From Nakazawaea peltata (taxonomy: Eukaryota; Ascomycota; Pichiomycetes; Alaninales; Pachysolenaceae), in contig BCGQ01000006.1 of NCBI GenBank assembly GCA_001599355.1, positions 310,001 through 374,000 of the forward strand: a stretch of 64,000 nucleotides of DNA, given 5' to 3'. How positions within the stretch are numbered: position 1 is the first letter of the stretch; each line of letters begins with the position of its first letter. The notes beneath the pieces are model-generated. The model saw only the letters and a program-made list of their open reading frames with translations. It searched no databases and was not told where the DNA came from. Shown piece after piece: positions 2,761 to 56,276 of this stretch. A program made the position numbers and the translations under genes.

Positions 2761-5700
2761 ATGCCTAGAGTTAGTACTGAGCAATTATCTCAGTTGCAAG
2801 CTAACCCTTCTAGTGTTAGGAACATCTGCATTTTAGCTCATGTCGACCATGGAAAGACCTCTCTTTCCGATTCTTTGCTTGCACTGAACGGTATCATCTC
2901 CCAAAGAATGGCAGGAAAGGTGAGATACTTAGATTCAAGACCAGATGAACAATTACGTGGTATCACTATGGAATCTTCTCTGGTTTCGTTATATTTCCGT
3001 GTCTTGAAGAAAAACAAAGAAGACCCGGAACTGCCCCCTACTGTAAATGAACATTTAATCAATTTGATAGATTCTCCAGGCCATATCGATTTTTCCTCAG
3101 AAGTATCAACACTGTCAAGATTATGTGATGGGGCAGTTGTGCTCGTTGATGTGGTAGAAGGTGTATGTTCTCAAACTGTCACTGTCTTAAGACAATCTTG
3201 GGTGGACAATTTGAAACCGATCTTGGTATTGAATAAAATCGATAGATTGATCACAGAATTAAAATTGACCCCCCAAGAACTGTATATTCATTTATCTAAA
3301 GTGATTGAACAAGTTAATTCGGTTTTGGGTTCCTTCTACGCAGGTGAAAGAATGCAAAATGATTATATTTACAGAGAAAAAATGGAGAATTTGAAGGAGG
3401 GAGAAGCTCATGAAGAGTTTGTAGAGAAGGATGATGATGATCTTTATTTCTCTCCCGAAAAGAATAATGTCATATTTGCTTCAGCTGTCGATGGTTGGGG
3501 GTTCAATATTTCTCAATTTGCCCTGTTTTACGAACGTAAGCTTGGAATGAATAGAGAAAACTTACAAAAAGTATTATGGGGAGCATTTTATTTGGATCCA
3601 AAGACTAAGAAAATCATCCCTTCTAAGGCTTTAAAAGGTCGTAATCTTAAGCCTTTGTTTGTTTCTTTTATTTTAGATAACATTTGGAGAATTTATCAGG
3701 ATTGTTTAATTGAGAGAAATCAAGATAATTTGACAAAAATTGTCTCCTCATTAAATTTGAAGATTTTACCGAGAGATTTGAGATCTAAGGATCATAAACT
3801 GCTCTTGCAATCCATTTTTGGCCAATGGATCCCGGTATCTACCCTGGTGTTACTTACAGTAGTTGAGAAATTACCCTCTCCTTTAGAATCTCAACGAATC
3901 AGAGTGCCTACCATCTTAGAGAACAGCAAAGAGGTCAATCCTATTTTGGAAAAACTGATGTTGGATTGTGATAGTGAGGGTCCAGTGAGTGCATATGTCT
4001 CTAAAATGGTATCAATTCCTGAGCTGGAGCTTCCTAAGAATCAACGTCTGCTGCTTAGTTCCGATGAGCTTCTGGAACGTGGAAGAATTCTGAGATTAGC
4101 AGCTCAAAGAGCTAGAGAAGAACTGCTCAAACTGGAAGGCCAAGAAGATGGAGAATCTGATGCCGAAGATAGTGAAGATGAATATATAACCAATAATTTC
4201 GTAGTTGATGATACTGCCGATCCAGGTTTCGAATGGGAATTTGAAGAAGAAGAAGAAATCCCTGAAGAAGTCGAGTTACCAAAAGAAGAATTGATCGGTT
4301 TTACTCGTGTCTACAGTGGATGCTTGAAAGTTGGTCAACAACTTAAAGTTTTGGGTCCTAAATATGACCCTCTGCATCCAAATGATCATATAGATACCGT
4401 AACCATCTCAGAGTTGTACCTTATGATGGGCCGTGATCTTGTCCTGTTAGACACCGTTCCTCTGGGTAATATTGCTGGAGTTGGAGGACTTCTGGGGAAA
4501 GTATTAAAGAATGGTACTTTAGTCAGTGAGGATATCACTGAAGGTGCTTGTAATTTACTGGGTGTCACTTTACTGCTGCCACCTATTGTTCGTGTAGCTT
4601 TAGAACCTGTAAATCCTATGCAAATTGCTCAATTGGAACGTGGATTACTGCTCTTAAATATGGCCGATCCTTGTGTTCAAACCTTTTTGCAAGATAGTGG
4701 TGAGCATATCTTAGCTACAGCTGGAGAATTACATTTAGAAAGATGTCTCAAGGATTTACGTGAGAGATTTGCCGGAATTGAGATCTCCCTGTCTCAACCT
4801 GTAATCCCATTCAGAGAGACTATCGCTCAGACTAAAGAAATGAACCCAGTAAAGAACCCCGAATTAGGAAGGGGAGTAGTTCAATTAGAAGTAGGATATC
4901 ACAAAATAACTTATAGAGTAAGACCATTACCATCTTCGGTGACTGAGGTCATTCTTGGTCATCCAGATCTTGTTGATAAGGTGGTTAATAGAGGTGCTGA
5001 AACTGATAAAGCTGTTCTTGAACAGAAGTTGAACGCGGCATTCGCCGAATCTAAACTGGATTCAAAGAAAGACGGAATTAATTGGGATAATTATGAACAA
5101 AAGATCGTAGGATTTGGTCCAAAGAGAACCGGTGCTAATGTTTTGTTTGATAATACATCTAAATTAAGAACCATATTTGGTGAAGAGCTGTCTCTGCTCT
5201 ATGAATATCTGGACAATATCAGTAACGGATTCCAACTTGCTATGAATGAGGGTCCATTACTGCAAGAAATCATCCAAGGAGTAGCTGTAATCGTAGAAAG
5301 TGTCACAGAGAGTAAGGATGACCAAGAGAATGTAACTGAGAATGAGACAGAGTCTGCAAATCTTGCTGGTAGAATCTTAACTATGACAAGAGATTGTATT
5401 CATAAACTGTTCTTAGATTGGTCTCCAAGATTAATGTTACTGATGTACCAATGTGAAATCCAACTGACCGCAGAAGTTTTAGGTAAGGTTTATGCTGTGG
5501 TACAACGTAGACGTGGATATATCGAGAGTGAAGAAATGAAGGAAGGTACGCCTTTCTTCAGTATCCAAGCTAAAATTCCAGCTGTAGAGCTGTTTGGTTT
5601 CGGAGAAGACATCAGAAAGAAAACTTCTGGTCTGCTGCAACCGCAATTAGTTTACGCAGGTTTCGAAATCATCGACCAAGATCCATTCTGGGTACCTACT

Positions 5701-5853
5701 ACTGAAGAAGAGTTAGAAGAATTGGGTGAAGTTGCCGACAAGGAAAACATTGCTCGTAAATACATGAATGGAATTAGACGTAGAAAAGGTTTATTCGTCG
5801 ACGAAAAAGTCGTTAAGAATGCTGAAAAGCAAAGAACTTTGAAAAAGGATTAA
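2761..5853 (+). CDS. EFL1: Elongation factor-like GTPase Efl1/Ria1 (60S maturation)
   Basis: Cytoplasmic EF-2-like GTPase that, with Sdo1, releases Tif6 from pre-60S subunits. The 1030 residues fit the family (1110 in S. cerevisiae). The G domain is clear: P-loop AHVDHGKTS (residues 26-34), switch region RGITMESS, DSPGH and NKID. An acidic insertion typical of Efl1 (around residues 465-520) separates the G domain from the domain II-V region with TAGELHLERCLKDL. The C-terminus has RKKTSG followed by DPFWVPTTEEELEEL. Six CTG codons sit at family alanine positions or at positions where alanine fits, including the adjacent pair at 5632-5637 (S. cerevisiae SGAAQPQ), making this gene strong evidence for CUG-Ala decoding. 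Convergent with COA6, 30 bp apart. Confidence 0.95.
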   Translation: MPRVSTEQLSQLQANPSSVRNICILAHVDHGKTSLSDSLLALNGIISQRMAGKVRYLDSRPDEQLRGITMESSLVSLYFRVLKKNKEDPELPPTVNEHLINLIDSPGHIDFSSEVSTLSRLCDGAVVLVDVVEGVCSQTVTVLRQSWVDNLKPILVLNKIDRLITELKLTPQELYIHLSKVIEQVNSVLGSFYAGERMQNDYIYREKMENLKEGEAHEEFVEKDDDDLYFSPEKNNVIFASAVDGWGFNISQFALFYERKLGMNRENLQKVLWGAFYLDPKTKKIIPSKALKGRNLKPLFVSFILDNIWRIYQDCLIERNQDNLTKIVSSLNLKILPRDLRSKDHKLLLQSIFGQWIPVSTLVLLTVVEKLPSPLESQRIRVPTILENSKEVNPILEKLMLDCDSEGPVSAYVSKMVSIPELELPKNQRLLLSSDELLERGRILRLAAQRAREELLKLEGQEDGESDAEDSEDEYITNNFVVDDTADPGFEWEFEEEEEIPEEVELPKEELIGFTRVYSGCLKVGQQLKVLGPKYDPLHPNDHIDTVTISELYLMMGRDLVLLDTVPLGNIAGVGGLLGKVLKNGTLVSEDITEGACNLLGVTLLLPPIVRVALEPVNPMQIAQLERGLLLLNMADPCVQTFLQDSGEHILATAGELHLERCLKDLRERFAGIEISLSQPVIPFRETIAQTKEMNPVKNPELGRGVVQLEVGYHKITYRVRPLPSSVTEVILGHPDLVDKVVNRGAETDKAVLEQKLNAAFAESKLDSKKDGINWDNYEQKIVGFGPKRTGANVLFDNTSKLRTIFGEELSLLYEYLDNISNGFQLAMNEGPLLQEIIQGVAVIVESVTESKDDQENVTENETESANLAGRILTMTRDCIHKLFLDWSPRLMLLMYQCEIQLTAEVLGKVYAVVQRRRGYIESEEMKEGTPFFSIQAKIPAVELFGFGEDIRKKTSGLLQPQLVYAGFEIIDQDPFWVPTTEEELEELGEVADKENIARKYMNGIRRRKGLFVDEKVVKNAEKQRTLKKD

Positions 5854-10450: not shown

Positions 10451-12832
10451 TCAAGGAATATACACGTACTGATGGTCCAGTTCGAGGACATTTCTATAGA
10501 TATACTCCTCGTCGATTAATTTTTCAATGTTCAACTTGATCACCTGATGATTCACTAAGGGATGGAGTTCCAATACTTTGAGTATCAATGCCGAATGAGA
10601 GAGTCGTTTCTCAGCTTTCATAGTACGTACAATGGACGTACGTAATTTGTCTTCCATATCCAAACTTTGCAGTGTCAACACTTCATTATCAATAGAGGTT
10701 GTTTGTCCAATTTGTTTTGAATCGTTGTTAAGAGGTCCTAAAACAGGTCTGACTAAACTCGACTTCGATTTGAATTCCTCATTAATTTCATAACTATTCT
10801 TATCCTCGCTTCTCAATAAAAGTTTATACTTCTTTTCAATTAACGAATCCAAATGCTGTTCTAATACTCTGTCATCCACCACTCTTAGATACCTCTTAAT
10901 TTCGTCATAAGTCAATCTCTCGTAACTATTGAAAAGTAATAATATAGAAGCTTGCAAAAGGTTCACAAATATGGTCTTCTCTTTCTTACCAAATCTACGA
11001 GTAACTGTTACTTGATGCAAATTATAGAACCATTTCAATGTCTTCAGACCCATGCTATCCTCTTGAGATTTCCAATAATCTTCGTACATTGTCAACATGT
11101 CCTGCATGTCTCTAGGGATCCTGAAACTGATTTCTGTTCTCAATTCTTGAGATTTACGTACATGGCCCCAATTAGTAGCAGCTAATACCAACACCTCGAA
11201 ATCGAACCTGGAATCAGATAAGAAGAACCCATTACAAAGAGAACGAGACGATCCGATATCCAAAATCATTTCTTCTAACGATTTAACAAATTCTGGTCCT
11301 GCCTCACTTTTCAATTGGCCAATCACATATGATTCTCTATCAAGATCACTCTTATTAAAAATTAACCTTCTCAGCAATTGCATCAGATAGATCTCCTTGA
11401 ACAAACTTTTATCGACTATCAAAGTGAATACATTAATAGCGGGAACAATGAACTCGTCAATACCAGAAGACGCAACATCGGACCCATTCCTCACCACAGG
11501 ATCCATCCACTTCATCCATCTTTCCACCAATAATCTCAAATGTTGTTTGGCTCCTATTATAGTCTTAACCAAATCACGGACTTTAGTCCGAAGCGTCCTA
11601 TCAGGGACTATTTCTTCCAGTGCGCGGCATGTAGTCTGAACAAAATTATCAAGCTCCTTAATAACATTGTCTCCCGAAGTGACAAGAGTTTCTTCCACTT
11701 GGGTGGTTAAGATCTTTTTATACAGTTCTATATAAATTTCAATTCGGCTCGAGCTCAGATAAAATTTGTACAATTGCCTTAATGAAGGAACGTCCTCTGT
11801 AAACAATACGGGTAATAACTCACTTAACAATTCCTGCTCATTATCATAAATCAATAACTTCAACACTATCAGCTTTATCGACTCTTCATATGATTTGGAC
11901 TCTTTGCAATAATGTCTTAACCATGACCGTATAGTTTGTACTATACTATCACATTTAATTATGTATTGCTTATCTAATTGACCCGATTCGGAATCTATAA
12001 GAGTCGCGCATTGCCCATCTTGGATCAGTTTGGCGACTAAATCTCTCATCAATGAGGGGAAACCAACAATTCCATCGGAATCTAAATCGATCAAAAGTGA
12101 GATCAGTGATCTGATAATATCTTGTATGTCGTCATCTCTTGTTTTCAAATATTGTGACATCATTTGAATGAGACTACCAAATATGGTGTACCTCGATTTC
12201 AATTCGCCTGGGTTGTATAATTTATCGCTTGCCAGACCAGGCAGCTTCAGGGCCAATAAATTGGATGCAAATAAATGAGATCCATGCCTCAGAATAGTAG
12301 ATTTGGTTTTGGATACTCTCAAATAATTATTCTCAAGATATAAAAGTGCCAATCTAAGTTGATTTACTCTTTGATTCCAAGTCTCCCAATAATTCAAAAA
12401 TACCTCACAACCGCCATTGCTATCTTTCTGAGAAAGTTCAGCAACAATTAGTGGCAGGAAATCATTTTCAAAATATGTAGTCATCTTGCTCTCTACCATC
12501 AGATATAACTCCAAAAACAGTCCCATCCGACACATCTTTTCCCCGAGATAAGAATACTCGTTAAGTGATCTGGCCAATGGTTCCGATCTTAAGGTCAGAT
12601 CCACAAAACGCGACAACAATGATAATGTACCATCGATAATATCTTTCTCCAATTCTTTGGCTCGTCCTCCACGAATGTTCCGATTCACCGTGTCAGTTTT
12701 AGAACTCTCACGCCATTCATATGTATTCTCTAAAAGACCTGACCTCAGTTGCGAAAGTTCGGCAAATCCGAGCTTGAATTTGCCTTCGAACCCGGGTCTT
12801 TGCGGGAACCCTTTCAATTGATTGCTGGCCAT
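10451..12832 (-). CDS. Cullin family ubiquitin-ligase scaffold
   Basis: 793 residues with cullin organisation: N-terminal cullin repeats (LFLELYLMVESKMTTYFENDF, then WETWNQRVNQLR), the cullin-homology region (FRIPRDMQDMLTMYEDYWKS, KTIFVNLLQASILLLFN) and the C-terminal winged helix with the neddylation motif IVRTMKAEKRLSHS, whose Met-Lys provides the Nedd8/Rub1 acceptor, ending in YVYIP. The scaffold would bring a RING E2-recruiting subunit to substrate adaptors in the nucleus or cytoplasm. I cannot decide between the Cdc53, Cul3 and Rtt101 subfamilies. Apc2 is unlikely because its neddylation motif is not conserved. The open frame extends to a GTG 11 codons upstream; I chose the first ATG (12832). 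Confidence 0.8.
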   Translation of the reverse strand: MASNQLKGFPQRPGFEGKFKLGFAELSQLRSGLLENTYEWRESSKTDTVNRNIRGGRAKELEKDIIDGTLSLLSRFVDLTLRSEPLARSLNEYSYLGEKMCRMGLFLELYLMVESKMTTYFENDFLPLIVAELSQKDSNGGCEVFLNYWETWNQRVNQLRLALLYLENNYLRVSKTKSTILRHGSHLFASNLLALKLPGLASDKLYNPGELKSRYTIFGSLIQMMSQYLKTRDDDIQDIIRSLISLLIDLDSDGIVGFPSLMRDLVAKLIQDGQCATLIDSESGQLDKQYIIKCDSIVQTIRSWLRHYCKESKSYEESIKLIVLKLLIYDNEQELLSELLPVLFTEDVPSLRQLYKFYLSSSRIEIYIELYKKILTTQVEETLVTSGDNVIKELDNFVQTTCRALEEIVPDRTLRTKVRDLVKTIIGAKQHLRLLVERWMKWMDPVVRNGSDVASSGIDEFIVPAINVFTLIVDKSLFKEIYLMQLLRRLIFNKSDLDRESYVIGQLKSEAGPEFVKSLEEMILDIGSSRSLCNGFFLSDSRFDFEVLVLAATNWGHVRKSQELRTEISFRIPRDMQDMLTMYEDYWKSQEDSMGLKTLKWFYNLHQVTVTRRFGKKEKTIFVNLLQASILLLFNSYERLTYDEIKRYLRVVDDRVLEQHLDSLIEKKYKLLLRSEDKNSYEINEEFKSKSSLVRPVLGPLNNDSKQIGQTTSIDNEVLTLQSLDMEDKLRTSIVRTMKAEKRLSHSALILKVLELHPLVNHQVIKLNIEKLIDEEYIYRNVLELDHQYVYIP

Positions 12833-22504: not shown

Positions 22505-23758
22505 ATGTTGGTTAAAAATCGTGTATTAATTCGTCAACGTGTTAGGGGACTGGCCCATTTCAGTTCTGGCCATCTGTTAGAGGTGTCTTTTAATGCTCCA
22601 AAGAGCTCTTCAGCAGCAGCTCTGTCGTCGCTGTCGGTCAGGTCGCAATATAGAAGATCAACTCTGCCTTCAGGCGTACCGCTCTCTAAGATCCTAAGTA
22701 ACTCATTCCCATTATCGGTATCCGAGTCCATCGCAGATTTTAAAAATCGGAAACAACTTGATGTCATGCAAGAGAATTTGTTCTCCACTTTGCCGTTCTT
22801 CCCAGAACCTGACCTGAATCGTACTCTGAAGTTTGTGAAGACCGTCATCAACGATGCTACCGGTGATTATATGAACGAATTTGTCATTCAACCAAAGAAC
22901 TGTTCCTATGAAGATTGCAAACATTTGGTCATCACCCATGGATATGGAGCAGGGATGGGATTCTTCTTGAAGAATATGGATCAGATCAGTGAATATGGGG
23001 CTCAAAATAACTGGTGTATTCATGCTGTGGATTTATTTGGATTTGGTGCCAGCTCAAGACCCAAATTTCCTACCCATTTGAATACTTTGGAAGAGGTAGA
23101 ACCTTGGTTCACAGACTCTTTGAAACAATATTTCAACCGTCGTGGTATCAACTCATCTAATGGTCTTGTAGTTCTGCATTCTGTAGGAGGATATTTCGCC
23201 GCAAGAACCAATATGTTACACCCAGAGTTGTTCAAGAAATTGGTACTTGTGTCTCCTCTGCTGATCACATACCCAGCTAATCCTCCTTGTATCCCTCAAT
23301 GGTTCAAATTACTTTGGGAAAGGAATATCTCTCCTTTCAGTCTTGTGCGTAACGCAGGTCCTTTAGGATCCTTCTTCCTGAGTGGTTGGAGTACTAGAAG
23401 ATTTGGTAAATTATCCACCGAGGAACAACAACTCTTACATAAATACACTTACGGAATTTTCAACGCTCCAGGTTCCGGAGAATACGTTTTAAACTACCTC
23501 TTACTGCCTGGAGGGGTTCCAAGACAACCATTAATCAACCAAATCGATAAGATAAACTGTGATTTGGTCTGGCTTTACGGTGAAGAAGATTGGATGGACG
23601 TCGAAGGAGGGGAACGTGCCTCTCAAATCGTGTCCGAATCTACACCTCATAACAGCACATTCAAATTAATCAGCCACGCTGGCCATCACATTTATTTAGA
23701 CAACTATATAGAGTTCAACAATACCATCATCCAAGAGATGTCGAGGTTCGAAAATTAA
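22505..23758 (+). CDS. CLD1: Mitochondrial alpha/beta hydrolase, cardiolipin phospholipase Cld1 / Ict1 family
   Basis: Member of the ABHD4/5-like family that includes Cld1, which deacylates cardiolipin before remodelling, and the acyltransferase Ict1. 417 residues (445 in Cld1). The basic N-terminus (MLVKNRVLIRQRVRGLAHFS) looks like a mitochondrial presequence. The core shows HGYGAGMGFF (oxyanion loop), DLFGFGASSRP, the nucleophile elbow and a C-terminal HHIYLD matching the family's H-x4-D motif. The elbow codon before HSVGG is CTG (23174). Read as alanine it gives AHSVGG, a sensible variant of GHSxGG; as leucine it would be unusual. The frame begins at a TTG; the ATG is three codons in. Its stop shares TTAA with the convergent VID27 stop. 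Confidence 0.82.
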   Translation: MLVKNRVLIRQRVRGLAHFSSGHLLEVSFNAPKSSSAAALSSLSVRSQYRRSTLPSGVPLSKILSNSFPLSVSESIADFKNRKQLDVMQENLFSTLPFFPEPDLNRTLKFVKTVINDATGDYMNEFVIQPKNCSYEDCKHLVITHGYGAGMGFFLKNMDQISEYGAQNNWCIHAVDLFGFGASSRPKFPTHLNTLEEVEPWFTDSLKQYFNRRGINSSNGLVVLHSVGGYFAARTNMLHPELFKKLVLVSPLLITYPANPPCIPQWFKLLWERNISPFSLVRNAGPLGSFFLSGWSTRRFGKLSTEEQQLLHKYTYGIFNAPGSGEYVLNYLLLPGGVPRQPLINQIDKINCDLVWLYGEEDWMDVEGGERASQIVSESTPHNSTFKLISHAGHHIYLDNYIEFNNTIIQEMSRFEN

Positions 23759-24953
23759 CGGTATTCCTTTACCACAGATCCGAACCCGAGACTTTCTCTT
23801 GTTGCTTTTTTCAAATTCCTTTTGTTAACCGTTTGTACATCATCTTCTAACAGCAAGATCACCTTCTTGTCACCACCAAACTTGAAGTTATCACTGATCA
23901 CATTAGATTCGTATTTCTTGATCTTATAACTCTTAACTCCCTTCAAGATATCCTTCAATGACCAGGTGATGACGTATGGACCAGAGGAGGTCACAATCGT
24001 TTGTTCATTGTTCTTCAAATCGATGTTGAAGTACAGTTTTGAGAATGACAATGGTGTTTTCCTACTGACCATGAACAGGATATGTTCTGGACTCAAAGTT
24101 AATCTCACAGGTTTAGGTTTGGTATCTTTACCGAAAGATTTCTCAAATCCAAGAGATCCACTATTCTTTCCTTCTTTGATCTTGGTATCAATTAACAATA
24201 AATGAGTATTGTAGGTTGCTAAGATCCATCTTCCATCCTTGGAGACATCCAAAGCATAACTTGGTTCTCCATAATCTGGTAACAGAGTCTTGGCATTCAC
24301 TCCCAATCTATCATACAATCTGATACCACCCTTCAGAGACAGTGTCAGTAAGTAACCTTGATCTGTGGTCAGAATTGTGGTGAAATCTGTCTTTGAGGCA
24401 TAATTCTTGAATTGACTTTCGACTAATTTCTCACCTGCAAGTCTTGGATCGATCTTGAAAAGACCTTGAGCTGAAACACCGACAAAAGTCTGCTCTCCAG
24501 TCAATTGAGATAACTTGGAAGTAGGGTTGAAATCAACAACCTTAAGTCCTTCCTTAACATAATAATCATCTACAACTTGACCTCTTTCCAAATCCATACG
24601 ATATAAATGGTCAGCATGATCTGGATCTTGTAAAATCATGGACTTATCTTGCATATGCAACATCATTTTGGAAGGATCAAATGTCTTCTGAGAACCTTTG
24701 GTCTTAATACCATTGATAGCGACATGGAATTTCATGCTGTCATCATCTTCATCTTCTTTGAAGACTCCAATAGATGAGCCACGAGCAACATAAGCACGAT
24801 TATCATTATAGGCAACAGTCATATGCTTGTTTTTACCCTTCGAAGATTTCAAATACAGAGATTTCAGTACCTCTTCTTCATCAGCATCCTCATCATCTTC
24901 GTCCACAAATAATTTATCCTTCTTACCGAATCTCAAGTTAGATCTAGACGGCA

Positions 24954-24987
<34 letters not shown>

Positions 24988-26073
24988 CTCGGATTGAGCT
25001 CCTCGTTCCAATACTAATTCTCCATCATCACTCAAAATATAATCTCTTTCATCTGTATTTACTTTAAGCCATTTGATTCTGTTCATCGATTCCCAAAGTG
25101 CAATTTTATACAGCTCTTGGAAAGATTCCAAAGCTTTGAAAGAAGAGAACTTCAATAAATACGTTTGTGAGTCCTCCATTATGCTGAAAATAAAACTAAC
25201 AGTATCAAAATCAAACACTGGGTTCATAGATCCAGCAATCTTGAACAGTAAAGTCTTCCCCTTAGTATTAATCAACAATTTATAAGAGAAATCTCCTTGA
25301 TCAAGAACATTAACAGGTACGTTCTCATCATTTAACTTGAATTTTAAGACAGATGCATCATACATATAAAACCCAACGACATCCTTAAAAGTAATATCAC
25401 CTCTCAAATCCGAGGAACCATCTTGAGCATCATGGAAATCATCATCATCATCCTCAGAGTTCTCATCGTCCAGTTCTCCACCTTTCAAACTCAACTTCCT
25501 ATCAAAATCCTTATGCAATACACTATCAGGAGCAAACTCCAGAAGCAACAGCTCATCTGAAATGTCGTCCGAGTCTCGGCTATACTTTCTTTCAAACTCA
25601 CATCTGTAAAGAGTATTAACAAACAACTCGACCAATCTCTCCTTCACCGCCTTCTTCTCTATGACCAATTCGAATCTATCACCGTAATCTCCATTCAATT
25701 CTTTCCACGAGATCTCATAACTGTCAGGTCTGTCCTTAGTGAAGCGGAAATCAAGAGACTCATCGATCAAGAAATCCCACTCATCTTTGAACAGCGCTTC
25801 GAATTCGTCGTCATCTTCGCCCTCAAATTCCCCATCGTTGTCCAACTCATCTTCTTCATACAGCTTCTGAACAATCAATTGATAGTTGAAGCTGGTGGAC
25901 GTCTTACGGATCCCAGCAACACAGTCATTGGAAATACATTCCAACTCTCCCTTAGGAGAGGAAGGCGATCTCTTTAAATACAACAGCGCTGAAGGAATCG
26001 TGACTAACTGATCCAAATCAGTGGCCGTAGGGGCCGGTTTGGATGTGTCTAAGATCTTCTTGATAATGTTCAT
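23755..26073 (-). CDS. VID27: Vid27, vacuolar import and degradation family protein
   Basis: Cytoplasmic protein linked to vacuolar import and degradation of gluconeogenic enzymes in yeast; its molecular role is unclear. 772 residues (782 in S. cerevisiae). The start MNIIKKIL and the segment SALLYLKRSPSSPKGELEC match the family N-terminus. The middle has several acidic runs (including about twelve Glu near residue 370), and the C-terminal half is the beta-propeller-like VID27 domain with HMTVAYNDNRAYVARG, SQLTGEQTFVGVS and DVSKDGRWILATYNTHLLLID. The frame extends 14 codons upstream to a TTG, so I chose the ATG at 26073. The terminal TAA overlaps CLD1 by 4 bp on the opposite strand. Confidence 0.9.
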
Positions 26074-33911: not shown

Positions 33912-35854
33912 TTACAGCTCAGCAAGGTCCTTCAAAAGCAGCTTTCTATGCTTAAATCTACGTTTACCATGAAGTTTCATTAATCTGGAATGACCCAGTC
34001 TATCATTAGGATCAGCAATGACCAGATCATCCTCTTTGGTGAAGATACCCTTGACATTTGGAGGGTCAAGTTGGCCAGTCTCCAAATAAATTCTCATATA
34101 CTCAAAGAAAGAGGCTAAATCCCCAGAAACCGCATGCACCATAGAAGTGGTCAACTCTTCAGATATGCCGAGGCTTGTCTTGAAGGCTGCACCTAATTCT
34201 TCGGCATCCTGACAAGACTTGGCTACTTCGGCTACTCTTTCTAAGAATTTAGATCTGGAGGTGGAGTTGAGAATCTCAGTATCGATATGATCACGTTGGA
34301 TGATTCGAGGTTCTTCGTTATGCTCTGTAAGAGTCTCTGCGGCATCGGCATAATCTAATTCACTCTCATCAGGGGATGAATACTCTTTACCTGTTGCTGG
34401 TTTCTTTGGTGCAACTTCCTCTGCAACATCTTTGGCCTTACGTTTCATTACCCTCTTTTCATCTCTAACACTAGACTTAACCTTGAGATCTTGGTCGAGT
34501 AAATCCATCAGAGATTTCAATTCAGCTTCACTGATAGGTTCTTCGTTGACTTTAGGTTTCTTGCCGACCCGAGAATGAGCTGGTCCATCATCCACGCTCA
34601 ATTCTTCCTGAGATGTAGGAATAGTTGGAGGAATAAATTCAGGTATAGATTCGCCTTGATCTTGTTTCAGTTGAACAAATTGTTCAAATTCTTTTTTAAC
34701 TTTTGGATAATCAGCCTCGAATTTCAAGAGATTCTCAATATCTTCTCTTCCCATCTTGACCATTGATTCATAATAATCTACATAGTTGTTGAAACGTAAT
34801 TTTGGCAACCCGAATTTACGTGCTCTGTCTCTCCAGGAATTGTAAGTATGTGAAGGATAAGTTGAGCTTAATCTGTTATAGAAGGAGGGAGTCTTTGGTT
34901 TAATCGACACTTTCAAGTCGTTTTCTGGGTCAACAATAATCTGCTCTTGTGTAAGGGCTTTACATAAAATGTAATCTTCGTCTGGAGTAAACGATGTCTT
35001 AAGACGAGAACCTGATTCTGTCTCGACGACATAGTTTCCGTCATCATCTTTGATAACCATCCCATCAGGTCCGGTTTTGAAATAGTTATTATTAACTACG
35101 GCCTTGAGTCTGGATCTGAATCTGGCTCTAATAGAAGCGATAGTATGAGATCTGAGTTGTTTATGAACGTGCTCGAAGAACAGCTGTGAGTCAGACATCA
35201 ATGGGTTTTTACGAGCCAAGGCAATGATAGTAGCATCCTCCTCAGGGGTGAAATACTGCTTACTATTGTCTTTGGATACCTTAGACAGAGGAACAGCGAA
35301 CTTATGACCTTGAGAAACAGCTTGAGATCCATCTGGAGTAGCTGCCAGAGCCGCGGCAACAGCGGCCAGAGCAGTATCTTCCATCAATTGAGGGAGCTCC
35401 AACTTATAATCGTCTAATTTTTGAGTAAAACCTTGAGAAACCGAGTCATAAACGAACTCAGGTCTATAAAATCCCAGAAACAGTAACTTCAAATCATCTT
35501 TAATATGAGAAAGCAGCGATGTCACTGGAATAATCGAGTTGAGGAACTCGTCACCTTTCTCAAGATCGTCCTGGGTGAGATCTGTTAAGACTTCACCACC
35601 ATTCTCTTCGATCAATTTGGCCAATCGAGCAAGTTCGGGTTCTTCATGTGAAATATAGAAAGCATAACCTTTGCTTTTTGAGTCTACAAACAACCTTAAC
35701 GCGTGTGTTAGTAACATCGTGACACCGATGGGACCGCTAGAGGCGTCAGCCGAGGGTAAAGAGCGGTTGATCACCCGGTAACATATACATACTTCCCAGT
35801 TGCGGTTTTGATCCCGTTGGAGTTCAGTCCAGGGAATCCTCCGAATTCTGACAT
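33912..35854 (-). CDS. RAP1: Telomere/promoter-binding protein Rap1 (two exons)
   Basis: Rap1 binds telomeric repeats and promoters, recruiting silencing and length-control factors. Exon 1 is 35793-35854, exon 2 33912-35694; 614 residues. Splicing joins MSEFGGFPGL...TATGK to LFVDSKSKGYAFYIS, completing a BRCT domain (residues about 20-115, with LAKLIEENGGEVL). Two Myb-type domains follow: YFTPEEDATIIALARKNP with RSHTIASIRARFRSRL, then SFTPDEDYILCKAL with YNSWRDRARKFGL and YVDYYES, exactly the Rap1 arrangement. The C-terminal RCT-like region is about 500-614 (GIFTKEDDLVI...MKLHGKRRFKHRKLLLKDL). Length is below S. cerevisiae Rap1 (827), like other short yeast Rap1 proteins. With CUG as alanine, an 11-residue Ala-rich run appears near residues 122-132. 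Confidence 0.9.
35695..35792 (-). other. RAP1 intron
   Basis: 98 nt. Donor GTATGT (35792-35787), branch point TACTAAC (35713-35707), acceptor AAG ending at 35695. The AAG is the first AG after the branch point; the next AG (a TAG) would break the reading frame. Exon 1 ends with two bases of a Lys codon. Confidence 0.82.
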
Positions 35855-36363: not shown

Positions 36364-38568
36364 CTAACCACCCATTACTCCCTCAGGTCTAGGTCCCTCT
36401 TTTTGTATAACCATCTTAGTACTTAATAACGTCCTCAAGTCATCACTAACTGGATTCTCTGTCACAGGTCTACCGTTAACTCTCAGTACACGTTGTTCAT
36501 GATCAATTGCATCCACCATTTTCCGGAATCTCAAGAATAAAAGTTCGGCCCTCACTAAAATATCATCCAACTCGATCGTGTTAGAAAGATCATTGAAATA
36601 TTTCAATACCTGATCAAATCTCAAAAGATATTTCTTTATAACTTTCTCATGCTTGAAAAGTAACAGTAAACATATGAAAAGTTGGAATTGAGAAGAATGA
36701 TAATCTGTGAACAAAACTTCCCACAATCTCATCACATCCTTGTATTCGAATTCACGTTTAAACCATACTAATAACATTCGGAAGAAGAAGAACAAATTGT
36801 TGGAATCCGCTTTTTCCAAATGAATATACAAATCCGGCAACATGAATTGAACTAACTCGTTCAAAGTACTCATCTGAGTCTTCATTCCTGATTGGTCTCG
36901 AAGGAAATTTCTTTCCATACGTACCATCACTTTGGTGAATGCCCAGAATGAGAGAGACTCATCACGGGTGATGAAGAATATAGGTGATAATAAGTCGGTC
37001 ATTCCTTGAACGTAACCAAGATTCAGATTATACTCGTTATATGTGATCAAAATGTTCCTCAACTTTTGCAAATTAGGGTTCTTAATATCACCGACATCCT
37101 GAGTTTCAGAGTCAGGAGCTTCTCCATGATGGTATTTAAATCCATCGGTGGTATTGTACTTATAAATTTCAAGAGAACGATCACATCTATTCACGTCTTT
37201 GTCAATTCTGAATTTCTGGTCTTTCCAGAAAGCATCCTCTTCTTGTCTTTTGAAGTCGTCTTCCCATTGATTCTTCAACTTCGTATAAACCATGAAAAGA
37301 TTCTTTCTGATAGTCGCCCGGTCAATTCTAGAAGAGGACCAAGGATATACTCCAAGAAGGAAAAGCCATCCTTCGGGTCTGACATCCTCTTCGAATCCTC
37401 CATGGAAAATTCTCTCTTTGATTTCATTGACTGTGATAGATAATCTTCCAGCATGATCAAAGAAGGAGTTCCATTCCACTAATGAGATGGGTTTACGACG
37501 TCTGGTTCTGCTGACTTCTTCAGGAGTCAATACATTTTGAATACTATCAACTCCGAGCTCATTTTTCAAAACTGTGGTATAATAATCTTCCAAAATGATC
37601 TTCTTTCTGGAACTCTCCAGATCTTCTTGAACTTTCATAGCCCATTTGGCCAAATAAACCCTAGCACTATCGAAATCTTCACCAACTTGTTGAACTTCTG
37701 TCCATTGGAGAAGCTTTTTCACAGGTTCAGGTGACTCATCAACCACATCTTTCACCTTCTCTCTGGTTCTGTTAGTAAGACCCAGCATTGTCTCCAATAT
37801 TTTCCATTTAGCACCGTTCAAAAAGCCATTGAAATCAAAAGGTTTAGCCTTCTCCTCCAGTACTGGTGGTTTGAAGTTGATAAGATCGTCTGAAGAGGGA
37901 TTAATTAAGAAAATCGACTTCTCAAGACTTGATCTCTCCATAACACAGAAATTCTTCAACACCTTAAAGAAAGAATCACCNCCCCAGAACAAATCTCCTG
38001 ATCCCGCCTCATCACTGAACACATTGAAGTTCTTATTTCTCAATTCTTGCTCCCTGATAGTGCTCGGGCTCTCATCATCGTGGAAGAATATGACAGGAAT
38101 GGTCTCAGATGACTTAGAGTTCAATATAACGGAACCCCACCACCAACCCAACGACGGCGGTCTTGATTGGACAGAAAATACAGCGGAAATAGGCAATCCA
38201 AACGCATAAGAAGTCACCGACGAGATCAATGGCTTGTTCACATAGTGATGTTGGCTGGCCAAACTCAGGATATTGAACCCACTTTGCAGTACAGTCTCAG
38301 AAGCGAACATCATATCCACCTCCTGGTACACCTTGTAGTCATCCGGGTGGATCATTGTCTCTGGGGTGAACGATATCACAATGTCATTGTTCAGGGTATT
38401 GAAGGGTTCTCTGGTCAAGGAAAGGAAGCCCGGGATATTGTCCTTTGATGAGGTGGTGGGATGGATATAAACTTTTGATTTGCAGTAAATCAATTCGGCT
38501 TTGTCGCCGATTCCCAGAGAGCTTCTGCGTCTCTCGAGGCGATCTTTTGAGAGGGTGGTATCGACCAT
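36364..38568 (-). CDS. GYP7: Rab GTPase-activating protein Gyp7 (TBC domain)
   Basis: GAP for Ypt7 at the vacuole, controlling late endosome and vacuole fusion. 734 residues (746 in S. cerevisiae). The N-terminal half carries a PH-like/DUF3548-type region (MIHPDDYKVYQEVD, RPPSLGWWWGSVILN). The TBC domain is about 387-690: GGFEEDVRPEGWLFLLG, the Arg-finger motif IDKDVNR (455-461), the Gln-finger motif YVQG (519-522), and LWEVLFTDYHSSQFQLFI. Base 37981 is N, but the affected codon 196 is GGN and therefore glycine in any case. ATG at 38568. Confidence 0.92.
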   Translation of the reverse strand: MVDTTLSKDRLERRRSSLGIGDKAELIYCKSKVYIHPTTSSKDNIPGFLSLTREPFNTLNNDIVISFTPETMIHPDDYKVYQEVDMMFASETVLQSGFNILSLASQHHYVNKPLISSVTSYAFGLPISAVFSVQSRPPSLGWWWGSVILNSKSSETIPVIFFHDDESPSTIREQELRNKNFNVFSDEAGSGDLFWXGDSFFKVLKNFCVMERSSLEKSIFLINPSSDDLINFKPPVLEEKAKPFDFNGFLNGAKWKILETMLGLTNRTREKVKDVVDESPEPVKKLLQWTEVQQVGEDFDSARVYLAKWAMKVQEDLESSRKKIILEDYYTTVLKNELGVDSIQNVLTPEEVSRTRRRKPISLVEWNSFFDHAGRLSITVNEIKERIFHGGFEEDVRPEGWLFLLGVYPWSSSRIDRATIRKNLFMVYTKLKNQWEDDFKRQEEDAFWKDQKFRIDKDVNRCDRSLEIYKYNTTDGFKYHHGEAPDSETQDVGDIKNPNLQKLRNILITYNEYNLNLGYVQGMTDLLSPIFFITRDESLSFWAFTKVMVRMERNFLRDQSGMKTQMSTLNELVQFMLPDLYIHLEKADSNNLFFFFRMLLVWFKREFEYKDVMRLWEVLFTDYHSSQFQLFICLLLLFKHEKVIKKYLLRFDQVLKYFNDLSNTIELDDILVRAELLFLRFRKMVDAIDHEQRVLRVNGRPVTENPVSDDLRTLLSTKMVIQKEGPRPEGVMGG

Positions 38569-42769: not shown

Positions 42770-42772
42770 GAG

Positions 42773-42846
42773 TGATTTCGCCCAGGATCGAACTGGGGAC
42801 CTTCTGCGTGTTAAGCAGATGCCATGACCAACTAGACCACGAAACC
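42773..42846 (-). tRNA. tRNA-Val (anticodon AAC)
   Basis: 74-nt intronless tRNA on the minus strand. The acceptor stem GGTTTCG pairs with CGAAATC, and the discriminator base is A. The D-arm contains the A-box-like GGTCTAGTTGG. The anticodon stem TCTGC/GCAGA encloses TTAACAC with anticodon AAC at 42812-42810. The T-arm CCCAGTTCGATCCTGGG is the B box. It is nearly identical to S. cerevisiae tRNA-Val(AAC). CCA is not encoded. A run of several T-tracts on the transcribed strand follows at once (plus-strand A-runs 42731-42769) and serves as Pol III terminator. It is not the CUG-decoding tRNA. Confidence 0.97.
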
Positions 42847-44566: not shown

Positions 44567-46675
44567 ATGGTATTGAAATCAACTTCCGCTGGTGGAGTCT
44601 CCGTTTATCAAGTCTCAGGAACAAACGCCTCCAGATCTTTACCCGACTGGATCGCCAAAAAACGTAAGAAGGCGTTAAAGAACGACCTCGATTATCAGAA
44701 CAGAGTCGAATTGATCCAAGATTTCGAATTCAGTGAAGCCTCCAACAAGATCAAGATCACCCCAGACGGTCAATATGCCATGGCAACAGGTACTTACAAA
44801 CCTCAAATCCACGTGTACGATTTCAGTAATTTGTCATTGAAGTTTGAGAGACATACCGATTGTGAGAATGTCGATTTCATAGTTTTATCGAATGACTGGT
44901 CGAAATCGGTCCATTTACAAAACGACAGGTCGATTCAATTCCAGGCCAGAGGAGGGGTCCATTACGCTACAAGGATCCCCAAATTCGGTAGAACCATGTC
45001 TTATAATGCTCTGAATTGTGATCTTTATTTGGGAGCCGCGGGAAATGAGTTGTATAGGTTGAATTTGGACCAAGGAAGGTTCTTACAACCATTGGAATTG
45101 GATACCGAGTTGGGTTGTAACAGTTTAGATATCAATAAGGTTCATAATTTGATCGGTGCTGGATTGGAGGATGGAACTGTGGAGTTTTTCGACCCAAGAA
45201 GTAGACAAAGAGTGGCCAAATTGCAGATCAACGAGACTCAACTGTTCCAAGGAAGTCCCGAGATCACCTCTGTAGCATTTAGAAACGATGGTTTGAATTT
45301 CGCATGTGGAACTTCCACTGGTAAATCGTTGATTTACGACTTGAGAAATCCTACACCATTGATCAATAAAGATCAAGGGTATGGGTTCCCGGTGAAGAAG
45401 ATCTTGTGGATCGACGAGAATAGCTCGGACTCGAATAAGATCTTGACCTCTGACAAGAGAATCGCTAAGATCTGGAGTAGATACGATGGTACTCCATACA
45501 CATCGATGGAGCCAAGTGTAGATATTAATGACATTGAGTATTGTAAAGAGTCGGGATTATTCTTCATGCTGAACGAGGGAATGCCAATGCATACTTATTA
45601 CGTACCCAACTTGGGTCCGGCACCGAAATGGTGTTCTTTCTTGGACAATCTTACCGAGGAATTGGAAGAGAAACCGTCCGATACTATTTATTCGAATTAC
45701 AAGTTCATTACTCGTCAAGAGGTTGCGAAATTGAACTTGAGTCATTTGGTTGGGTCCAAGGTATTGCGGTCGTATATGCATGGGTTCTTTATTGATAATG
45801 AGTTGTACGATAAGGTGAACTTGATTGCCAATCCTAACTCTTATAGAGATCAAAGAGAACGTGAGATTCAAAAGAGGATCCAAGAAGAGAGAGAGTCGAG
45901 AATTAGATCGACTGGAGCTCTTAAGAACACTAAAGTCAAGGTCAATAAGGATTTGGCTACTAAATTGCATGAGAAATCGGCTTCTCAAGCTGAAGAAATC
46001 ATTAATGATGATCGTTTCAAGGAGATGTTTGAGAATCCTGATTTCCTGATCGATACTGAGTCTCATGAGTATAAACAATTGAATCCAGTTCTGTCGACTA
46101 AGGATATTGAGAGTTCACGTCCACGAGGTAAGACTCTGGCCGAGGAATCGGATGATGAAAGAATGGAGGTGAATGATAAGAGAGGAATGTTTAGTGACAG
46201 TGAATCTGAGTCTGAATCTGAAGAAGAAGAAGCTCTGGAATCTGAAGAAGAGTCCGATGACGAAACTAAACAACTTCAAAAGCTGAAGATCCAGAAACAA
46301 CTTCTGAAAGAACGTAGAAAGAAACAAATCCAACAAGAGACCGACCAATTCCTTGCTAATATGAAACCTGTGGATCCCCTGAGTCTCGAGTCGTCCAATT
46401 CCACTAAACGTGATAAGCAATTGGTGTCATTTGGTAGTCAGGTGAAGAAGATCAGTAAAGTATCGAAGGCTGAACTGCAAAGAAGAGCCGACACGAGGGT
46501 TCATAAGAACGCTAAAGGTGAGCTGGAGATGACGTTTGTGCCATCGGGAAAGAAACCAGTCAGAAAGCAAGTTCAATTCGACGACGACGACGAGCCAAAG
46601 AAGGACAATGGACGTTCCAGACAAAGATTCGAGGGAAGAAGAAGAGCTAGTAAGAATGCTTTTAGGGGAATGTAA
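44567..46675 (+). CDS. ENP2: Nucleolar 40S-biogenesis WD-repeat protein Enp2
   Basis: Component of 90S pre-ribosomes required for 18S rRNA processing. 702 residues (707 in S. cerevisiae). The start MVLKSTSAGGVSVYQVSG and SLPDWIAKKRKKALK match the family N-terminus. A beta-propeller spans about residues 35-350 (FEFSEASNKIKITPDGQYAM, FGRTMSYNALNCDLYLGAAG, GTVEFFDPRSRQRVA, DWSKSVHLQNDRSI). The NUC153-like segment FEDPEF-equivalent is DDRFKEMFENPDFLID near 485. The C-terminus is acidic, then basic and nucleolar (RRKKQIQQE, GRRRASKNAFRG). The frame extends to a GTG; the ATG at 44567 is used because conservation begins there. Convergent with LSB3, 45 bp apart. Confidence 0.93.
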   Translation: MVLKSTSAGGVSVYQVSGTNASRSLPDWIAKKRKKALKNDLDYQNRVELIQDFEFSEASNKIKITPDGQYAMATGTYKPQIHVYDFSNLSLKFERHTDCENVDFIVLSNDWSKSVHLQNDRSIQFQARGGVHYATRIPKFGRTMSYNALNCDLYLGAAGNELYRLNLDQGRFLQPLELDTELGCNSLDINKVHNLIGAGLEDGTVEFFDPRSRQRVAKLQINETQLFQGSPEITSVAFRNDGLNFACGTSTGKSLIYDLRNPTPLINKDQGYGFPVKKILWIDENSSDSNKILTSDKRIAKIWSRYDGTPYTSMEPSVDINDIEYCKESGLFFMLNEGMPMHTYYVPNLGPAPKWCSFLDNLTEELEEKPSDTIYSNYKFITRQEVAKLNLSHLVGSKVLRSYMHGFFIDNELYDKVNLIANPNSYRDQREREIQKRIQEERESRIRSTGALKNTKVKVNKDLATKLHEKSASQAEEIINDDRFKEMFENPDFLIDTESHEYKQLNPVLSTKDIESSRPRGKTLAEESDDERMEVNDKRGMFSDSESESESEEEEALESEEESDDETKQLQKLKIQKQLLKERRKKQIQQETDQFLANMKPVDPLSLESSNSTKRDKQLVSFGSQVKKISKVSKAELQRRADTRVHKNAKGELEMTFVPSGKKPVRKQVQFDDDDEPKKDNGRSRQRFEGRRRASKNAFRGM

Positions 46676-46720: not shown

Positions 46721-47998
46721 TTAGTTCAATTTAACATAGTTAGCTGGGAAGATACCTTCCTTTCCGTTGAGTCTTCCGGTCCACCAATCGTCGGTGCTGT
46801 CGGATTTCTGGATGATCGTGAGCACTTCACCCTTCTTGAAACCCAAATCTCCTGGCTGCTGAGCATCGAAAGTGAACAAAGCTGTAGCAGTATTTGGTTT
46901 TGGAGCCAGAACAGGTGGAGAAGGAGCAGTACGTCTGGAGGACGACCCGTTCGAGTTCCCAAACGACGGCTTATCGGATGATGGTCTATAAGGTTTACCG
47001 TTCAAGCTGGAGTTTCTCATTCTACTGGACAATCCGGCTTCGTAGTCATCGTCATCGCTATAATTACTGGTTCTTCTGGTGTTATAAGATCTATCGTAGA
47101 TATCGTCTTCCCAGGAGGTTGGTTTGGCCGGTTTTTTCGAAGCCGAAGGTCTACTGGATCTACGAGATGAATAATAATCGTCGTCGTCGTCGTCTTCTTC
47201 ACTCAAATCATCGTATCTTCTAGAAGAACGACTTCCACCGAATCTGGATCTTCTTGGAGATTCATGAAGAGAGGAGCCGTCGGAACTGAATCTCGATGGC
47301 ATATCGTCGTAATCATCGTCACTATATCCATCTTGATCAGCATTAGCATTGAAAGCTTTGGATTCCAAGACTCTGAACAAAGGTTCACAAGCTGGAGGAG
47401 GTCTAACTTTACCGGCTAAAATGTAACGAGCTTTACAGTTGTCACCGTAGAACTTTCTGTTGGCTTCTCTTCTTTCCAAGATGGCAGAACCTTCTAAAGA
47501 GACACCGGCGAACAAACCTTTGGTCTTTGAGTAGGCAAAGATTGGGGCGACGGCTTTTAAAGAGGCACTTCCGGCCAGTTCGGCGTTCCTACCAAGTGGG
47601 CCGGCAGCAACGGAGATATTACCACCCAAAGTGACGGAACCAAGTTGGGAGAACGATCTGACAGCGTCGTCAGTGTTCAAAATGAAAACGAAATCGGTCA
47701 ATTCAGCACCGATTTGACCACCGACACCGGCACCAGCGGTAACGATGGCGGATGGGGCCGACCACGATCCGTCGGGAAGTCTGGCCACAACGACACCCGA
47801 ACCGGCTCTTCCACTGAAAAGGAAACCGGCCTTTAACACGGTGATGATGGCCAAACCTTTGGCGTTCCGTAAGACTTCGAGAGGGATGACTCTGTCGGGA
47901 CCCAATGCCTGGTTGGGCTTGACAAACGAGGTCAACACTTTGGCTGCTTTTTTACATTCGGCTTTCAATCCTAAAGGGACTGGATTGTTGATACCCAT
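46721..47998 (-). CDS. LSB3: Actin-patch SYLF-SH3 protein Lsb3/Ysc84
   Basis: Binds and bundles actin and interacts with Las17 (WASP) at endocytic sites. 425 residues (Lsb3 451, Ysc84 468). The SYLF/Ysc84 domain is residues 1-220, starting MGINNPVPLGLKAECKKAAK and containing AGFLFSGRAGSGVVVARLPD and ERREANRKFYGDNC. A long acidic and Arg/Ser-rich linker follows. The C-terminal SH3 domain is about 370-425 with ALFTFDAQQPGDLGF, DDWWTGRLNG and GIFPANYVKLN. S. cerevisiae YSC84 has an intron near its start; none is needed here. The frame runs 109 codons upstream without family similarity, so I use the ATG at 47998. Confidence 0.92.
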   Translation of the reverse strand: MGINNPVPLGLKAECKKAAKVLTSFVKPNQALGPDRVIPLEVLRNAKGLAIITVLKAGFLFSGRAGSGVVVARLPDGSWSAPSAIVTAGAGVGGQIGAELTDFVFILNTDDAVRSFSQLGSVTLGGNISVAAGPLGRNAELAGSASLKAVAPIFAYSKTKGLFAGVSLEGSAILERREANRKFYGDNCKARYILAGKVRPPPACEPLFRVLESKAFNANADQDGYSDDDYDDMPSRFSSDGSSLHESPRRSRFGGSRSSRRYDDLSEEDDDDDDYYSSRRSSRPSASKKPAKPTSWEDDIYDRSYNTRRTSNYSDDDDYEAGLSSRMRNSSLNGKPYRPSSDKPSFGNSNGSSSRRTAPSPPVLAPKPNTATALFTFDAQQPGDLGFKKGEVLTIIQKSDSTDDWWTGRLNGKEGIFPANYVKLN

Positions 47999-48560
47999 GG
48001 TGACGAGTTGGAGAGGTGGATGGGTGCGATCTGAATAGCAGTGATCTGAATAGATTCGATCAATTGATGGAGTGACTTTTGGTCTGGGTGGAGCGCAGTG
48101 CGACACAATTTTCTGTCTGCGGGTAATTTTTGATAAAGGCAGGGACAGTGGGAGCGGAAACGGAAGGGCAAAAGACGGGGCAATGACAGAAAAGGAGAGG
48201 GAGTGACTGGGATTCACAGGACAGGGGCAATGCCAAGGAGGAGGGGGATTAGTAATTCTGTACGGGGGGCGTCGGGTTAGAGAGTACAGGGGTAGATTGA
48301 TTGTATTTAGATAGGGATAGTACATGGTGTCAATGGCTAGTTGTGGACTATCCGTTCTTACGTCATCATCGGTCCTAAGAGGAATAGGTTAAGTAAAGTC
48401 GTGTATAAAAATCTAATTTTCATATTATTATCAGCTCTGGAAAGTTGTGCCCTGCTGTGCTCTGCCCATCGGCCTGCCTCTGATAAATTAGGTTTCACTG
48501 ACTACTGACTGCTGCTCACTGCCACTGCCACCGCTCACTGCCACTGCCACTGCGACCACA
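47999..48560. other. Divergent intergenic region LSB3/DUF1776 gene with CACTGC repeat
   Basis: 562 bp holding two promoters. Near the right end, 48515-48553, CACTGC/CACTGCCAC units are repeated about six times just before the start of the DUF1776 gene. No other feature is recognised. Confidence 0.5.
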
Positions 48561-54635: not shown

Positions 54636-56276
54636 ATGGGATTCTGTTTCAGTTGTATGAAAGGGTCCGGGTCGGGAGACTCGGCTAATCCAACTTTGTT
54701 AGCTGATAACGAGCGTGAGGCCATCTCTCTGTTGTTGCATTTCTTGGAAAATAGACCTGAAGTTGACTTCTTCGGAGGTAGTCCTTTGAAACTGTTAAGT
54801 ACTCTTGTCTACTCCGATAATGTGGACTTACAAAGAAGCGCCCTGCTCCTGTTTGCGGAAATTACCGAGAAAGACATCAAAACTGTCGATAGAGATGTAT
54901 TGGAACCTATATTAATCTTATTACAAAGCAATGACCTGGAGGTACAAAGAGCAGCCTGTGCTGCCTTGGGAAACTTGGCGGTTGACAATGATAACAAAAT
55001 ATTGATCGTTGAAATGGGTGGTTTGGAACCTTTAATCAAACAAATGATGTCTTCGAATATCGAGGTACAGTGTAACGCGGTTGGATGCATAACAAACTTG
55101 GCTACTCAAGATGATAATAAACTGAAAATTGCCCGTTCTGGTGCTTTGGTCCCATTGACAAGGCTAGCTAAGTCGAAGGATTTGCGTGTCCAAAGAAATG
55201 CCACTGGAGCTTTATTGAACATGACTCACTCTTTGGAGAATAGACAAGAATTGGTTAATGCTGGACTGGTACCGGTCTTGATTCAGCTTTTGTCAAGTGA
55301 TGACCCTGATGTTCAGTATTATTGTACTACTCTGTTATCCAATATTGCTGTAGATGAGGTGAATAGGAAGAAATTATCTGTTAGTGAACCTAAATTGGTC
55401 TCTCAATTAGTTCAATTGATGGACTCTGTCAGTCCAAGAGTCCAATGTCAAGCTACATTACTGTTAAGAAACTTGGCTTCCGATGCTACTTATCAATTGG
55501 AGATCGTTAGAGCCGGAGGTTTACCTAATTTGGTGACACTTTTACAATCGACTCATCAACCATTGGTCTTAGCTGCCGTTGCATGTATCAGAAATATCTC
55601 TATTCATCCATTAAATGAAGCCTTAATAATCGAGGCTGGCTTCTTGAAACCTTTGGTCACCTTGTTGGACTACACCGAGAGCGAAGAAATCCAATGTCAT
55701 CTGGTTTCTACTTTACGTAACTTGGCCGCCAGCAGCGAGAGGAATAGAAAACTGTTATTAGACGCTGGTCTGGTAAGTAAATGTAAAGAGTTGGTTTTGA
55801 AATCACCAATCTCAGTTCAAAGTGAAATTAGTGCATGTTTCGCCATCTTACTGTTGGCAGACGACTTAAAATCACAATTATTGAAGTTAGATATCATCGA
55901 CGTCTTAATTCCTTTGACATACAGTAACAATGGAGAAGTTTGTGGAAATCTGGCCCTGGCCCTGGCCAATTTATGCTCTAGAATCGATGATTATTCGATC
56001 ATTTTGAAATCCTGGACAGAACCAAAAGGTGGTATCTTTGGATTCTTAACTAGATTCTTACAAAGTGGTAACCCTACATTTGAGCATATTTCATTATGGA
56101 CCATTGCCCAATTGTTGGACTCGGAGAACAATGAGATCATCAATAACTTGAAAATCTCAACTTTGAAACAACAGATTGGAAGTATCCGTCAAACTCACTT
56201 ATCCAACGATACTGAAGTAGAAGGAGGCGAAGATATCTTAAATTTAAGTGAGCAAATCTTAACTTCGTTGAATTAA
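54636..56276 (+). CDS. VAC8: Vacuolar armadillo-repeat protein Vac8
   Basis: Lipid-anchored vacuole-membrane scaffold for vacuole inheritance (Vac17), nucleus-vacuole junctions (Nvj1) and autophagy (Atg13). 546 residues (578 in S. cerevisiae). The N-terminus [10 protein letters not shown] offers Gly2 for myristoylation and Cys4/Cys7 for palmitoylation. About eleven armadillo repeats follow, with near-identical family stretches such as [51 protein letters not shown] and [14 protein letters not shown]. At least eight CTG codons fall on alanines of S. cerevisiae Vac8 (for example codons 70 and 72 in QRSA-A-L-A-FAEITEK, and [21 protein letters not shown]). This is the best evidence in the window for CUG-Ala decoding. 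Confidence 0.97.

Follow-up and report, generated by a model that had tools for sequence, protein, structure and literature searches.

In a stretch of 64,000 bases of DNA (the window), conserved genes carry CTG codons at alanine positions. We put the probability at roughly 0.94 that the window derives from the nuclear genome of a budding yeast in which CUG is translated as alanine (NCBI translation table 26), with the Alaninales/Pachysolenaceae (Pachysolen, Nakazawaea, Peterozyma) as its most likely affiliation. Its origin in a nuclear budding-yeast genome of the Alaninales is suggested by gene content together with the code. The window is gene-dense, 40% G+C and budding-yeast-like, with 28 long open reading frames (ORFs) counted after three nested ORFs of 31 were dropped. 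Pfam matches point to a gene content that includes CHS7, EFL1, an acyl-CoA ligase, an APC2-like cullin, an adaptor subunit, a multicopper oxidase, VID27, RAP1, ENP2, a YSC84 homologue, EDC3, VAC8 and a GRIP-domain golgin, some of these names being our interpretation of the Pfam and structure matches. The features that bear on the analysis are as follows.

54636..56276, forward strand: VAC8, armadillo-repeat vacuolar protein of 546 aa, with 16 CTG codons.
2761..5853, forward strand: EFL1/RIA1, elongation-factor-like GTPase, with 36 CTG codons; 8 of the 22 tabulated against human EFL1 face Ala.
44567..46675, forward strand: ENP2, ribosome biogenesis, with 12 CTG codons, 11 of them aligned to S. 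cerevisiae Enp2.
23755..26073, reverse strand: VID27, with 18 CTG codons; Pfam VID27 domain scores compared over six readings.
10451..12832, reverse strand: APC2-like cullin, with 20 CTG codons; Cullin domain score 202.3 (Ala), 200.0 (Ser), 185.5 (Leu).
22505..23758, forward strand: alpha/beta hydrolase, with 12 CTG codons; Abhydrolase_1 score 70.0 (Ala), 67.2 (Ser), 60.5 (Leu).
33912..35717, reverse strand: RAP1-like gene, with 13 CTG codons, two of them within the alanine run TAxAAVAAAxAAT.
42772..42846, reverse strand: tRNA-Val(AAC), the sole tRNA found in the window and not a reader of CUG.
27948-30035, reverse strand: LIM-binding-domain protein with glutamine-rich stretches.
36364-38568, reverse strand: TBC-domain gene, containing the single N of the window.
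46721-48325, reverse strand: ORF of the YSC84 homologue, whose first ATG lies 109 codons ahead of the likely start (MGINNP, 47998).

The MGINNP start of YSC84 is the one expected for the family, and the part of the ORF upstream of it resembles untranslated sequence read as protein. Within the LIM-binding-domain protein, CTG alternates with Gln codons (Q-x-Q-x-Q-x-Q-x-x), and these stretches are Gln-Ala repeats under table 26, not Gln-Leu.

The ORF at 54636-56276 was identified as VAC8 by its top match among solved structures, S. cerevisiae Vac8 (7ycj, E 7.5e-229). The original prediction had named ten CTG codons of this gene as sites that are alanine in the yeast protein, and all ten (codons 70, 72, 211, 233, 276, 356, 379, 406, 439 and 441) were found opposite Ala; positions 54843 and 54849 had been located correctly and are codons 70 and 72, as had 55950 and 55956, which are codons 439 and 441. 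Taken together, the 16 CTG codons of VAC8 face 11 Ala, 2 Leu, 1 Pro, 1 His, 1 Glu and 0 Ser, the six absent from the earlier list being codons 53 (Ala), 32 and 443 (Leu), 101 (Pro), 163 (His) and 373 (Glu). The accompanying claim that neither leucine nor serine fits any of the sites holds for serine over the whole gene; for leucine it holds at the ten listed codons and fails for VAC8 as a whole, given codons 32 and 443. The omission of these two Leu sites made the initial case slightly too clean, although the pattern stands.

Codons of VAC8, ENP2 and EFL1 were then tabulated column by column against S. cerevisiae Vac8, S. cerevisiae Enp2 and human EFL1, all proteins of solved structure, the EFL1 columns being drawn from an alignment without the block at residues 208-305 and without its second part, and with its third part covered incompletely. 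CTG was entered as X, and its decoding was therefore unable to bias the alignments. A tabulation of this kind against orthologues had been proposed as a check, with dominance of Leu or Ser at CTG as the outcome to be feared. Across the 49 CTG columns of the three genes Ala was the commonest residue (22), followed by Leu and Lys (4 each) and by Pro, Glu, Val and Ile (3 each), with a single Ser and other residues once or twice each. The background frequency of Ala in non-CTG columns was 6.3% (binomial p = 3e-14, sites treated as independent). Expressed as BLOSUM62 log-odds, the CTG columns gave +30.0 bits for Ala, -1.4 for Ser, -5.8 for Val and -16.6 for Leu, placing Ala first among the 20 residues with Ser the runner-up 31 bits behind. 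As a control, the same scoring assigned all 53 of the other codons that had five or more columns to their correct residues, and among codons with enough columns CTG alone deviates from the standard code; CTA and CGG (1 column each), ACG, CGA and CAC (2 each), TGC (4) and CGC (0) fell below five columns and outside the control. Two of the genes carry the signal individually, the lead of Ala over Ser being 15.5 bits in VAC8 and 11.5 bits in EFL1. ENP2 alone is weak, with Ala in 3 of 11 columns and ahead of Val by 1.6 bits.

These columns bear directly on the reading of CUG as leucine under the standard code, in which the proteins would merely have diverged. Leu does face CTG in four of the 49 columns. 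However, in the 187 columns of the five remaining Leu codons the facing residue is Leu 130 times and Ala 6 times, and general divergence therefore does not explain the gap at CTG. The GCN codons, for comparison, face Ala in 54 of 91 columns, and the lower frequency of Ala at CTG (22/49) differs from this with p = 0.11.

An ambiguous CUG, decoded for the most part as alanine but to a considerable extent as leucine, whether by competition between tRNAs or by mischarging, would accommodate the Leu opposite codons 32 and 443 of VAC8 (yeast Vac8) and codons 455 and 538 of EFL1 (human EFL1), and competing tRNA genes are carried by the related Ser2 clade (PMC5951914). Yet the excess of Leu at CTG (4/49) over that at GCN codons (2/91) is not significant (Fisher p = 0.18), in a sequence comparison that is blind to a small share of leucine at CUG, and leucine is the lowest of three readings in the Pfam totals given below. 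Such ambiguity is very improbable.

More distant relatives gave a thinner signal and were kept apart from the 49 columns. Against eEF2, a distant paralogue of EFL1, Ala was found in 5 of 27 and 3 of 22 columns, with Lys in 4 of each; two of four chains were tabulated, one without its last ten residues (which hold no CTG) and the other without the second part and one block of the third. ENP2 aligned to human NOL10, tabulated without the first block, the last block and a weak second part, showed Ala at 1 of 4 CTG columns. For the acyl-CoA ligase, APC2 and RAP1, structure searches gave remote or partial relatives only. In these alignments, which were inspected by eye with the first listed chain as reference, Ala was present at 4 of 11 CTG columns, the other seven holding Gly, Thr, Leu, Arg, Asn, Ser and Val, one each. 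Among them are the four CTG codons of the APC2-like cullin that aligned with 7shk, codons 483, 487 and 785 facing Ala and codon 596 facing Gly. An alignment-free test based on neighbouring residues placed Ala 9th for CTG; its own control recovered 4 of 45 codons, and the test was therefore discarded as having no power.

Conserved domains provided a second line of evidence. Pfam scans under tables 26, 1 and 12 covered twenty of the 28 proteins, while the eight genes starting at 26370, 27024, 31835, 38957, 40623, 43323, 50001 and 61106 lay outside the Leu and Ser scans. Summed over 36 domains of the 20 proteins, scores were 4205.1 for Ala, 4139.8 for Ser and 4051.8 for Leu, which puts Ala ahead of Leu by 153 bits and of Ser by 65. 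Ala outscored Leu in 29 of the 36 domains and Ser in 26, and was the sole best reading in 23, against 6 each for Ser and Leu and one tie. Overlapping secondary families were excluded from the 36, within which the EFL1 and EFG_IV domains overlap by 21 residues. The excluded families are divided: ARMC5 and the HEAT families favour Ala, KAP and EF-G_D2 favour Ser, and ARM_PUB and TPR_IPO5 favour Leu.

Glycine, threonine and valine readings were tried on two genes, VAC8 and VID27. The Arm family in VAC8 scored highest with Ala (244.2), followed by Thr (233.2), Val (228.4), Ser (214.7), Leu (214.2) and Gly (208.5). In the weaker, overlapping families of VAC8 another residue sometimes outscores Ala, be it Val, Thr, Ser or Leu: ARM_PUB gave Val 66.8, Leu 66.4 and Ala 64.5, V-ATPase_H_N gave Thr 35.2, Val 34.3 and Ala 30, and KAP, outside the 36, gave Ser 42.4 and Ala 32.4. 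The C-terminal VID27 domain again preferred Ala (488.6) to Ser (478.2), Thr (476.5), Gly (473.8), Val (472.1) and Leu (468.2). Ala was also ahead of Gly, Thr and Val in VID27_N, whereas VID27_PH gave Gly 81.4 and Ala 80. The Rap1 DNA-binding domain slightly prefers Ser (56.9) to Ala (54.4).

Serine decoding, the code of the Candida (Ser1) and the Ascoidea/Saccharomycopsis (Ser2) clades, takes second place in the Pfam total and is the best reading in six of the 36 domains. The chemical closeness of Ser to Ala would account for that second place. Given one Ser in 49 columns, and deficits to Ala of 31 bits in the alignments and 65 bits in Pfam, a serine reading is scarcely credible. Leucine, for all its six best-scoring domains, has 153 bits against it in the Pfam totals and is the least credible reading of all. 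Both decodings were rejected on the alignment columns and Pfam together. The proposal that CTG means alanine in this genome is borne out by the alignment columns, by the Pfam totals under tables 26, 12 and 1 and by the Gly, Thr and Val trials on two genes, and table 26 is the natural assignment for a codon found at Ala positions 11 times in 16 in VAC8 and 22 times in 49 over three genes.

CTG is common in the window, at 353 of 15,603 codons in the 28 genes (22.6 per 1000). With CTG included in the alanine set it is the commonest alanine codon (32.1%), followed by GCT (30.4%), GCC (18.0%), GCA (14.5%) and GCG (4.9%), and the Ala share of residues rises from 4.78% to about 7.0%. Several CTG codons lie within alanine runs. 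Inside and outside Pfam domains, respectively, CTG was counted 131 and 222 times and GCN 298 and 447 times (p = 0.39), so CTG is not significantly kept off conserved regions; this split used the best Pfam stretches, with VAC8 taken as residues 33-503, no domain given to PTR3, and YSC84 begun 15 bases inside its likely start. The CTG share of alanine codons differs by gene (chi-square 89.6, 27 df, p = 1e-8), the extremes being PNC1 (0 of 12 alanine-set codons) and IES2 (20 of 32). Across the 28 genes the share tracked neither GC3 (p = 0.33) nor an optimal-codon index built on an assumed codon set (p = 0.50). The leucine codon CTA is rare (33 codons, 2.1 per 1000), whereas TTA and other codons ending in A are common, and this rarity may be linked to avoidance of a wobble-reading tRNA-Leu(UAG). 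Whether CUG is a preferred or co-preferred alanine codon across the whole genome, entering conserved sites as readily as GCN does, is a proposition that we consider evenly balanced.

A route to this code can be proposed. CUG would be decoded by a tRNA-Ala that had acquired the anticodon CAG. Since alanyl-tRNA synthetase needs no particular anticodon bases, such a tRNA would continue to receive alanine. The former tRNA-Leu(CAG) would have disappeared, and CTG would afterwards have risen to be the commonest alanine codon of the window. The single tRNA detected here, the tRNA-Val(AAC), scored 56.4 bits against the Rfam tRNA model. It was missed on the whole window with the default gathering threshold (0 matches) and found with an E-value threshold; zero matches from the default run are therefore untrustworthy for tRNAs. 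A search with VAC8 in genome-contig and viral-contig collections, which are not yeast-genome sets, returned no close relatives.

The reading of CUG as alanine has been known since 2016. In PMC5951914 it is described as found in that year in Pachysolen tannophilus and extended by Krassowski et al. in 2018 to Nakazawaea and Peterozyma, with a tRNA-Ala whose anticodon mutated to CAG as the cause; nuclear reassignment of a sense codon is described there as very rare. Other papers add that Pachysolen CUG was absent from highly conserved positions of Leu or Ser in an earlier survey (PMC4986446), that five CUG-Ala species were left out by LaBella et al. (2019) because software was unable to handle them (PMC6701816), that for 453 of 462 yeast species the Codetta reading of CUG is consistent with its known distribution (PMC8629427), and that a 2024 codon-usage survey was corrected for the Alaninales code (PMC11540330). 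On Ascoidea rubescens the papers disagree, CUG being given as alanine in a 2017 review (PMC5499181) and as serine by mass spectrometry in PMC5951914.

The window resembles the table 26 clade (Pachysolen tannophilus, Nakazawaea and Peterozyma, order Alaninales) in having CUG at conserved alanine positions, a standard meaning for the other codons with enough columns, and budding-yeast gene content. With CUG-Ser1 (table 12) and CUG-Ser2 it shares reassignment of the same codon in budding yeasts, which in those clades came about through an anticodon-mutated tRNA (PMC5951914). It is unlike them in the residue, which is serine in those clades, with Ser in 1 of 49 columns here. It also departs from the description of code-changed clades in the same paper, where CUG is relatively rare and lies away from well-conserved sites, as well as from the rarity of CUG in reassigned species stated by LaBella et al. 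(2021; PMC8084343); here CTG is the commonest alanine codon and conserved domains are not significantly avoided, a contrast that is drawn with the published description and not with CTG frequencies of known Ala-clade species. The passages of the 2024 survey (PMC11540330) held no CTG frequency for the Alaninales, and in the literature searched, as partial texts, no mention of a CUG-Ala species with abundant CUG was met, which is not proof of absence.

The high usage of CTG, in differing from the published description of those clades (PMC5951914), could be taken to favour a separate reassignment of CUG to alanine in a lineage outside the Pachysolenaceae. That scenario has no positive support, and the single known Ala clade (same source) offers the simpler reading; a separate origin is highly improbable. 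Membership of the known clade is therefore preferred, and the unusual part of the finding, worth following, is the abundant use of CTG, including at conserved sites.

The proper translation of the window is settled, with CTG as alanine. The warning that standard translations are wrong at every CTG applies to 353 codons here; CUG is unusually common in the window, and one residue in about 44 is therefore misread under the standard code. An Ala-clade yeast with abundant CUG at conserved sites would be a good system for studying the refilling of a reassigned codon, and would also be suited to asking whether any leucine reading persists at CUG. If the preferred use of CUG holds genome-wide, the reassignment of this sense codon would be fully mature here, in contrast to the published picture of code-changed yeasts, in which CUG is rare and avoids conserved sites, and this yeast would serve as a test case for the repopulation of a captured codon.
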